Part shown: positions 13,355-22,481 of the stretch, in pieces | Position numbering within the stretch: the first letter of the stretch is position 1 | Layout: the number at the start of each line of letters is the position of its first letter | From: Candidatus Kryptoniota bacterium | GTDB taxonomy: Bacteria > Bacteroidota > Ignavibacteria > Kryptoniales > JAKASW01 | DNA: 64,000 bases | NCBI GenBank assembly: GCA_036567965.1 | Contig: DATCTN010000012.1 | Location: 1-64,000 of the forward strand | Direction: 5' to 3' | The notes under the pieces: model-generated | Database searches by the model: none | The model's input: the letters and a program-made list of their open reading frames with translations, nothing else | What the model was told of the DNA's origin: nothing | Made by a program: the position numbers and the translations under genes

Positions 13355-14898
<1,544 letters not shown>

Positions 14899-15488: not shown

Positions 15489-18529
<3,041 letters not shown>

Positions 18530-18579
18530 AATCTTTTTCTGAGACGCCAGATGATTGACGAAATGTTTTTGATTCAGCA

Positions 18580-18595: not shown

Positions 18596-18604
18596 CAATT
18601 TTTT

Positions 18605-18719
18605 CCGGCGACTATATCGAGGGGGAAACACCCGTTCCCATTCCGAACACGGCAGTTAAGCCCCTCAGAGCCGATGGTACTTGATGGGTAACTGTCTGGG
18701 AGAGTAGGTCGTTGCCGGG
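18605..18719 (+). rRNA. rrf: 5S ribosomal RNA
   Basis: About 115 nt with terminal stem CCGGCGA.../...TGCCGG and the conserved loop block CCCATTCCGAACACGG. Last RNA of the operon, followed by a two-hairpin terminator. Confidence 0.93.
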
Positions 18720-18728
18720 AGTATTTTT

Positions 18729-19032: not shown

Positions 19033-19770
19033 GTGAATAGAATAGAGGCGAAAGTATTTGAAATCATAAAATCAAATCTGCCGGACAAGAGCATCCGGAT
19101 TCTTGAACTGGCGCCTGGCGAAGGAAGCCTTACACAGGCGTTGATCGAACATGGTTACAAGAACGTCGAGGCGTTGGACATCAATCCCCAAAGGTTCGAT
19201 GCGACTGCAGTGAAATGCCGCAAAGGCAACCTGAATGATCCGTTGCCTTTTGAATCAAGCTCCTTCGATCTTGTGATTACGGTCGAGGGGATTGAACACC
19301 TTGAAAGCCAGTATCAGTTTGCTTCCGAGCTGAACAGGGTATTGAAAGAAAATGCTTTCGCGATCATCACTACGCCCAACATTATTAATTTTGCATCCAG
19401 GATCAGATTCATAATGACCGGTTTCTATGCTCTCGCGGTGAGGCCTAGCAGCGAGTTTGAGAAGAACTGGGTGATTGAACACATCTACCCTCTAACATTC
19501 TGGCAATTGCGCCACATTCTTCACACGAACGGCCTCTTTATCAAACAGATTGAGACGGATCATATCCGCAAGTCTTCGATCGTTGGATTGCTGGTCCTTC
19601 CTTTAGCTTATGCGCTTACCTGGAAATCGCTCGCGAGGGAAGGCGATGCGAGGCAACGAGAGAAGAACAAGGAAATACTGCGGCAAATTCATACTCCCGC
19701 GATTTATCTAGGCCGCACACAAATAGTCATGGCACAGAAGCAGAGGAGCTCCTATATAAAGTCGACCTGA
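19033..19770 (+). CDS. SAM-dependent methyltransferase, class I
   Basis: 245 residues. Motif I is ILELAPGEGSLTQAL (about 22-36), motif II acidic residue in VEALDINPQ, motif IV in FDLVITVEGIEHLE, then a post-motif region AIITTPNIINF. This is the Methyltransf_11/23 pattern seen in small-molecule and glycan methyltransferases. Start GTG 19033 has CCGGAGGG upstream. A hydrophobic stretch near 190-205 (VGLLVLPLAYALTW) may touch the membrane. It is alone between the rRNA operon and a promoter-driven zinc-ribbon gene. The substrate is unknown. Confidence 0.82.
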   Translation: MNRIEAKVFEIIKSNLPDKSIRILELAPGEGSLTQALIEHGYKNVEALDINPQRFDATAVKCRKGNLNDPLPFESSSFDLVITVEGIEHLESQYQFASELNRVLKENAFAIITTPNIINFASRIRFIMTGFYALAVRPSSEFEKNWVIEHIYPLTFWQLRHILHTNGLFIKQIETDHIRKSSIVGLLVLPLAYALTWKSLAREGDARQREKNKEILRQIHTPAIYLGRTQIVMAQKQRSSYIKST

Positions 19771-19840
19771 CTTGATGCGCAATTCAGCTTATCAGAATCT
19801 GAATTTGGAATCGTGTCGTGAACTCGACCAATAGGTGCAG

Positions 19841-19869
19841 TTGATACCTGCCGAGAAACCTGTTACAAT
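19841..19869 (+). promoter_or_regulatory. Sigma70-type promoter for the zinc-ribbon gene
   Basis: TTGATA (19841-19846), 17-nt spacer, TACAAT (19864-19869). Predicted start near 19876 leaves a ~46-nt leader before ATG 19922. Confidence 0.6.
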
Positions 19870-19921
19870 GAGATCAACTCTGATGATTCAACTGTGGTTT
19901 GATTAACATAAGAATAACCTT

Positions 19922-20452
19922 ATGACGGAATTCGCAAGCGGTGACATGAAAGATGACGCGTTCGTCTGTTCCGAGTGTGGCTCCCCGACCGCGCCGGATA
20001 ACGATTTTTGTCCGAACTGCGGGAGTCTCTTCAAGGAAAATGTCGATTGTGCAAATCATCCCGGTGCTTTAGCTGAAGGCGCATGCGTCATCTGTTCCAG
20101 CCCGTTTTGTACGGATTGCGGACTGTGGGTTAACAAGACGTTCTTATGCACCTAGCACTGCAAGTACGAGCTCATTGCGGGAAACGCAAGAGTACTCGGT
20201 GGTAACGACATCCTTCAAATGCAGTATGCGGAAACTTGCCTGAAGCAGGAGGGCTTACATCCCACTCTTTATTCCAGAAAAGCGAGTCCGATATCTCTCG
20301 GTGCCCCGGAGTACACATTGTTTCGCGCGTCAGGGGAATACGATGGCCATATTATTAACGAACTTAAACTGATGGTCCCTTATCAAGAGGTGGAAGAGGC
20401 GGAACGCGTGCTGGTAGAAACCGGGATCCTCCCCCCGTTGTCCGCCGAATGA
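19922..20452 (+). pseudogene. Zinc-ribbon/B-box-like plus DUF2007-like protein interrupted by an in-frame TAG
   Basis: One reading frame of 177 codons contains a single in-frame TAG at codon 78 (20153-20155). Codons 1-77 encode a double zinc ribbon (CSEC ... CPNC), then a B-box-like cysteine/histidine array (CANHPG ... CVICSSPFCTDC ... FLC). After the TAG the frame continues directly with HCKYE and ends in a ~65-residue domain resembling DUF2007 signal-transducing domains (MQYAETCLKQEGLHPTLYS ... VPYQEVEEAERVLVETG). The array seems to span the stop, so the parts belong together. A good promoter lies upstream. Either the gene is recently inactivated, the TAG is a sequence error, or it is read through. 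TAG is a normal stop elsewhere in this window (for example pilB). The function is unknown. Confidence 0.65.
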
Positions 20453-20516: not shown

Positions 20517-22481
20517 TTACGCCTTCTGTAGGTTCTCTATCTCTTCTGTCAATCTTGTCCACCTGGAATAGGATCCATCCAAACTCTTCACCAAGTCCCG
20601 ATACTCAACTGAAGCTTCCCTTGCTTCTTCACCGTTTTTATAAAAGTCCTGCCTGGCCATCATTGTTTCTATTTCTTTTCGTCTTGTTTCCATCCGGGAT
20701 ATTTCTTCTTCAATTGTCATCAACTCTTCTTTCAATGGCCGCAACTTCTTCGAGAGCTCGTTCCTCTTCTCCGCTTCAAGGCGCTTTCTCCCCTTCACGG
20801 AGAGATCCGGCCTGAGATCGCTCCCATCTCGGTCAACAGCCGGCAATTGATTCGCGACTTCAGTCGAAATGTCCTGCTCCTGCCTCTTCTTCCACAGATA
20901 ATCACTGACATTGCCGTGGAATGTCCTCACAGCCCCGTGACGAAATTCTGCAACTTTGTTCACCAATGGATCAAGAAAAGATCTGTCGTGTGAGACTATC
21001 ACGAATGTTCCTTTGAATTCGTCTAGAGCTTCCTGTAGAATCCTCTTCGACTTCATGTCGAGATGGTTTGTGGGTTCATCCATGATCAGAAAGTTAGCAG
21101 GCTGCAGAAGCATCTTGGCAAGCGCCAGCCTGCTTTTTTCTCCTCCCGATAGAACAGAGACTTTCTTAAATACGTCGTCGCCATGAAATAGGAATGCACC
21201 CAATATGGTTCTTATCTTGGTCCGCACTTCGCCTGTAGCCGCGCTGTCGACAATCCCCAGCGCGTCGCTGGTCAGCTCGAGCTCTTCTGCCTGGTGCTGG
21301 GCGAAATAAGAAGGGATGACGTTGTAGCCGGTTTTGATTTCACCCGAATCGACCGCCTCCACCCCCGCAAGTATTCGGACAAACGTTGATTTGCCTGCTC
21401 CGTTGACTCCCAGCACCGCAATCCTGTCTCCCCGTTCGACAAGATAACTCAATCCGTCGAAAACCTTCGTGACGCCGTAGCTCTTCTTTACGTTCCTTAG
21501 CTCCATCACGGTGTGTCCGCTCGCCCTCGGCTCGGGAAAATGGAAATGGATCTCCTCTTCGTTGTCCTCAATTTCGATGTGTTCCATTTTCTCGAGATGT
21601 TTTATTCTGCTCTGTACCTGTCGGGCTTTTGTCGCTTTATACCTGAACCTGTCAATGAACTGCTGGGTCTGTTTGATCTGCTGCTGCTGGTTCTTGAACG
21701 CGTTTAGCTTCTGCTCCTTTCGGATTTCTTTTTCTTTTTCATAGAACGAGTAATTCCCGGAATACTCTTCGAGTCGCCCGAGACTGAGTGCCCAAGTCCG
21801 CTTTGTGAGATTGTCGAGGAACGCCCGATCATGTGACACGAGGATGACTGCCCCGTTGTAGGAGCTGAGTTTTTGCTCCAGCCATTGAAGAGACTCGATG
21901 TCAAGGTGGTTCGTCGGCTCGTCGAGGAGGAGAACAGAGGGCTCTTTGAGGAGGAGCTTCGCCATCTCTATCCGCATCTGCCAACCGCCGCTGAACTCGT
22001 CTGTCAGACGGTGGAAATCCGACTCAACGAAACCTAACCCGATGAGCACCTGTTCAATCCGAGACTTCATCCGGAAGGCGTCCAGGTCTTCGAGCTTGTG
22101 CTGGAGCTCGCCGAAAACTTCGAGTGTGTCCGCGTATTCGGCGGCAGCAGGATCAAGTTCCTCAAGCCGCTTGTGCGCCTCATCTATCTCCTGTCTCACC
22201 TGTATCACGTCTTCGAATGCGGTCTCGGCTTCTTCGAAGAGTGTCTTTCCATACGATGCGATGCCTTCCTGCGGAAGGTATCCCACCGTCACATATCGCG
22301 CCTTGCCGATTTCTCCCCGATCCGGCTGCACTAATCCCGCAACAGTCTTGAGCAGGGTCGATTTCCCCGCGCCGTTCGGTCCGACAAGACCGATTCGATC
22401 ATGAGCGCCCACCGTGAATGAGAATCCACGAAAGAGAAATCGCTCTCCGAATTGGATTGTCAGATCTTTCGCGCTTAACAT
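20517..22481 (-). CDS. ABC-F family ATPase (Uup/YheS-like)
   Basis: 654-residue soluble protein with two ABC ATPase domains and no membrane segments. Walker A motifs are GPNGAGKST (~35) and GVNGAGKST (~358); signatures are FSGGWQMRIEM and LSGGEKSRLALAK; Walker B regions are LLLDEPTNHLD and LIMDEPTNHLD. A charged inter-domain linker lies at ~235-310 and a C-terminal coiled coil at ~560-654. This is the ABC-F translation-factor layout; members act on the ribosome, and the C-terminal coiled coil is as in Uup-like forms. Start ATG 22481 has GGAG upstream. It converges on the zinc-ribbon gene. Which ABC-F subgroup cannot be settled by eye. Confidence 0.93.
   Translation of the reverse strand: MLSAKDLTIQFGERFLFRGFSFTVGAHDRIGLVGPNGAGKSTLLKTVAGLVQPDRGEIGKARYVTVGYLPQEGIASYGKTLFEEAETAFEDVIQVRQEIDEAHKRLEELDPAAAEYADTLEVFGELQHKLEDLDAFRMKSRIEQVLIGLGFVESDFHRLTDEFSGGWQMRIEMAKLLLKEPSVLLLDEPTNHLDIESLQWLEQKLSSYNGAVILVSHDRAFLDNLTKRTWALSLGRLEEYSGNYSFYEKEKEIRKEQKLNAFKNQQQQIKQTQQFIDRFRYKATKARQVQSRIKHLEKMEHIEIEDNEEEIHFHFPEPRASGHTVMELRNVKKSYGVTKVFDGLSYLVERGDRIAVLGVNGAGKSTFVRILAGVEAVDSGEIKTGYNVIPSYFAQHQAEELELTSDALGIVDSAATGEVRTKIRTILGAFLFHGDDVFKKVSVLSGGEKSRLALAKMLLQPANFLIMDEPTNHLDMKSKRILQEALDEFKGTFVIVSHDRSFLDPLVNKVAEFRHGAVRTFHGNVSDYLWKKRQEQDISTEVANQLPAVDRDGSDLRPDLSVKGRKRLEAEKRNELSKKLRPLKEELMTIEEEISRMETRRKEIETMMARQDFYKNGEEAREASVEYRDLVKSLDGSYSRWTRLTEEIENLQKA

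Follow-up and report, generated by a model that had tools for sequence, protein, structure and literature searches.

Extent and composition of the interrupted frame

In the 64,000-nucleotide stretch of DNA analysed here (referred to as the window), the plus-strand segment 19922–20452 translates into 177 codons that end with a TGA codon and comprise one internal stop, a TAG at codon 78 (positions 20153–20155). Does this TAG reflect the loss of a gene, is it passed by ribosomes, does it divide one protein into two, or is it an error in the assembled sequence? The translation bears out the two structural claims of the original prediction, namely that the TAG is the single stop in an otherwise open frame and that the frame beyond it contains neither a frameshift nor a further stop before the terminal TGA. 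As judged from sequence comparison, the interrupted frame corresponds to one genuine gene rather than to a chance arrangement because homologues of the read-through frame in other genomes span the TAG position uninterrupted; the best of them align with the read-through frame over 155–160 residues, with 45–56% identity. The features of the locus are as follows:

13355–14892 (16S), 15489–18530 (23S) and 18604–18720 (5S): rRNA operon upstream of the gene
19946–20155, plus strand: N-terminal open part, which matches the Zn_Ribbon_1 profile and a B-box-like Cys/His array minus its last His; the frame is also open from ATG 19922
20153–20155, plus strand: in-frame TAG, one codon ahead of the invariant last His of the array; a sense codon in all homologues examined
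20156–20452, plus strand: downstream continuation with the last His of the array and the DUF2007-like domain, ending with TGA; 23 of 26 family positions kept
20219–20452, plus strand: possible re-initiated ORF of 77 amino acids, from the first in-frame ATG past the stop; the C-terminal domain of its product would be missing its first strand
20517–22481, minus strand: ABC-F type ATPase gene, convergent with the TAG-split gene

The reading of the encoded protein as a zinc-binding array followed by a DUF2007-like domain turned out to be right, the second part by way of a homologue. The 77-residue N-terminal piece matches both Zn_Ribbon_1 (27.8 bits) and zf-B_box (24.6 bits) above the Pfam cut-off. 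Taken alone, the C-terminal part of the window protein gives a weak DUF2007 match that lies below the cut-off (E 0.13), and its assignment as DUF2007-like relies on a homologue (L003) that is 45% identical to the window protein over the whole length and that passes the cut-off for DUF2007 (PF09413; 28.1 bits versus 25.7). The AlphaFold model of the read-through frame, built with 23 homologues, is confident (mean pLDDT 87, pTM 0.78); it displays zinc-binding strands up to about residue 75, followed by a domain in which a strand–helix–strand unit precedes a strand–helix unit. A fold search returned no match with an E value of 0.001 or less. Twelve columns are invariant in the 24 sequences, ten of which are Cys or His residues of the zinc sites.

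The relatives come from Ignavibacteria and from metagenome genomes labelled Bacteroidetes, and the domain content assigns the gene to a small Ignavibacteria family that combines a zinc ribbon, a B-box-like finger and a DUF2007-like C-terminal domain. The window gene shares with these PF09413 proteins the order of the domains and, once the TAG is read through, all 12 Cys/His ligands; its identity with the long-type group amounts to 35–56%. Unlike them, it is interrupted by a TAG and lies behind an rRNA operon, and not at the stomatin-like/secD locus occupied in the genus members examined.

Genomic location, start site and dispensability

In those genus members, the family gene sits between a stomatin-like gene and secD. 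The window copy is found away from this locus, just past the rRNA operon (window 19033–20452 compared with L160, in G000:C19): the operon precedes a methyltransferase-like ORF, which ends 151 bases upstream of the TAG-split gene (the names given to the methyltransferase-like and ABC-F neighbours were read from their sequences, with no profile search). This differing location suggests a relocation or a separate acquisition of the window copy. Shared synteny was rejected as a proof of orthology, the window copy being off the genus locus and the tree leaving its exact kin unsettled. In the window's genome, a universal-stress-protein gene lies upstream of secD.

Translation may start at ATG 19946 rather than at ATG 19922, a choice that fits the relatives better without being decisive. 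Intact relatives start at about the former position, where the ribosome-site pairing is also stronger (−3.5 kcal/mol versus −0.4 kcal/mol at 19922). The good promoter initially reported did not withstand comparison with chance: the promoter-like element TTGATA-17-TACAAT (19841–19869) represents one match, versus 1.2 in shuffled sequence.

Within the genus, an intact long-type copy is present in 5 of 13 genomes (G004, G005, G008, G011 and G012). In six others, the long type was not found and only a more distant paralogue was, an absence that is not fully certain since these are draft genomes. The remaining two carry the TAG-split copy (the window's genome) and an internally deleted copy (G009). 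The latter (L014:1459–1800, in G009:C82) has 113 codons. Compared with G012, to which its flanks are collinear, it has lost about 250 bp internally, and with them what remains of the B-box and the bulk of the C-terminal domain. Given this deletion between conserved flanks, the gene has therefore been damaged at least twice in the genus, and the distribution of intact and damaged copies indicates that it is dispensable there. The window's genome also contains an intact, more distant paralogue (L002; G000:C30:170844–171206, minus strand) with a zinc ribbon, a B-box-like finger and a C-terminal domain; this paralogue might partly stand in for the split gene.

The TAG position across relatives and the age of the stop

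Homologues were sought in the genus, the class, the phylum and a set of named genomes. All those found cross the TAG position in frame, except the G009 copy, in which the region is deleted. The TAG column corresponds to the second, variable residue inside a Cys-x2-His pair, with an invariant Cys two positions before and an invariant His one position after; in each of the 20 long-type homologues, it is occupied by a sense codon (encoding E, H, R, N, Q, D, A or P). Among the 23 genomes that give a strong match in the phylum sample of 395, the window's genome is the only one with an internal stop; likewise, the window's copy is the only one with such a stop among the 13 genomes of the genus. Relatives thus encode an amino acid at this site, the outcome that the original prediction had named as its refutation, and this counts against anything beyond a private change. 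Termination at the TAG costs the final zinc ligand, i.e. the invariant last His, and the entire C-terminal domain. A nonsense pseudogene is expected to have a stop that is absent from close homologues and a truncation that removes essential parts, and both are observed here, whereas programmed readthrough predicts a stop conserved in relatives, which none of the 20 long-type homologues displays.

The age of the stop was assessed from positions conserved in 70% or more of the family. Of these, the window gene retains 22 of 24 upstream of the stop and 23 of 26 downstream of it, where intact relatives retain 17–25 of 26–27. Because the downstream half is as well kept as in intact relatives, the stop appears to be evolutionarily young, a very recent origin being unproven; the same 23 of 26 positions would fit a working read-through gene equally well. 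For both halves, the window copy is about as distant from outgroups as its nearest intact relative (L083) is. In a neutral simulation, a divergence above about 0.13 substitutions per site since the loss was unlikely (P below about 0.05–0.07); this value is an upper limit, and the stop may have arisen much later.

According to a survey of bacterial genomes, single in-frame stops are common and widespread in protein genes; they are usually short-lived, like polymorphisms, although some have been argued to be read through, and the affected genes often have a dN/dS below 1 (PMC7918605). The window gene resembles the single-nonsense pseudogenes of this survey in having one stop, no frameshift, a conserved downstream part and a short age. 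It differs from the core set of the survey, in which stops are common to at least two species, in that its stop is private to one genome. The window case fits the short-lived class. A codon-usage scan over 464 kb of the same genome turned out to be unusable for estimating a genome-wide rate of interrupted genes: the focal gene received a low score, owing to its cysteine-rich N-terminal part, and a checked candidate (a TGA at C12:128654) was false, as it corresponds to two separate genes, for a C1 peptidase and an MFS transporter.

Origin and consequences of the stop

Our favored explanation, which we regard as probable, is a recent private nonsense mutation in the gene of a small zinc-binding protein with a zinc ribbon, a B-box-like finger and a DUF2007-like domain. 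The mutation would have arisen recently in this lineage, and RF1, which is found above the cut-off in the genome, would stop translation at the TAG, yielding a product of 69–77 residues devoid of the last zinc ligand and of the whole C-terminal domain. With such a product, the gene has probably lost all or nearly all of its function, a loss that the organism would tolerate given that the genus can do without the gene. The stop, its restriction to this genome, the domain it removes, the conservation beyond it and the lack of the suppressor machinery tested for are observed; we infer that ribosomes mostly terminate there in the cell, and that the DNA itself, not the assembly, carries the change. 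As regards the latter point, the TAG might be a wrong base, an assembly error or a minority allele that entered the consensus, in which case the gene would be intact in the organism. This is rather unlikely in our opinion, even though the downstream half free of decay, the stop shared by no homologue and the otherwise defect-free frame all agree with it; there is no direct counter-evidence; the genome, which is nearly complete, with little contamination and in 32 contigs, is silent on single bases.

Of the three readings put forward originally, a young nonsense mutation and a base error fit the data, and programmed readthrough has no support in them. If ribosomes passed the TAG at some level, the full-length protein would be made and the stop would lower its expression. 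The intact downstream conservation is compatible with this idea, as is the finding that in-frame stops are widespread in bacterial genes, often with a dN/dS below 1, but the same survey considers most such stops short-lived and polymorphism-like (PMC7918605), and the stop is conserved in no homologue of the window gene. Moreover, the search for a suppressor tRNA suggested by the original prediction, performed with covariance models and with ARAGORN, detected no CTA anticodon among 46 tRNA genes. Matches to pyrrolysyl-tRNA synthetase (PylS) were all below the cut-off (37 bits versus 178) and similar to those obtained in ordinary control genomes. Pyrrolysine and amber suppression systems have in common with the window gene an in-frame TAG and a frame continuing beyond it; unlike them, the window's genome has no PylS over the cut-off and no CTA tRNA, it has RF1, and TAG is an ordinary terminator, ending 11 of the 42 long ORFs of the window. 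Amber recoding with or without pyrrolysine was rejected in view of the tRNA, PylS and RF1 results, and so was a readthrough-promoting RNA structure, since the folds predicted across the stop and beyond it are unremarkable and no better than those of shuffled sequences (z scores of 0.34, −1.29 and −1.02). Functional readthrough is consequently improbable. Slimmer still is the chance that the TAG is tolerated and partly read by near-cognate tRNAs, in which case it would serve as a switch that keeps a signalling-like zinc/DUF2007 protein at low expression.

Gene fission, with the two halves made separately and the second one produced by re-initiation at ATG 20219, is the reading to which we give the least credit. 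This ATG is in frame, 64 bases past the stop, and the 22 bases preceding it are predicted to form a duplex of −6.4 kcal/mol with the 16S tail, but this pairing occurs farther upstream of the ATG than is usual for a ribosome site. Furthermore, the split falls inside a zinc-binding site and not between domains, re-initiation would leave out the strand that opens the C-terminal domain (residues 80–86 of the AlphaFold model), and no homologue is split in this way.

A recent nonsense mutation therefore remains our preferred explanation for the TAG. The case calls for caution, in that a lone stop in a conserved frame resembles recoding, while checks on relatives, tRNAs and release factors reduce such a stop to ordinary young gene loss or to a base error. 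If readthrough were nevertheless true, the window gene would add a case to the debate on whether such stops lower the expression of genes or kill them.
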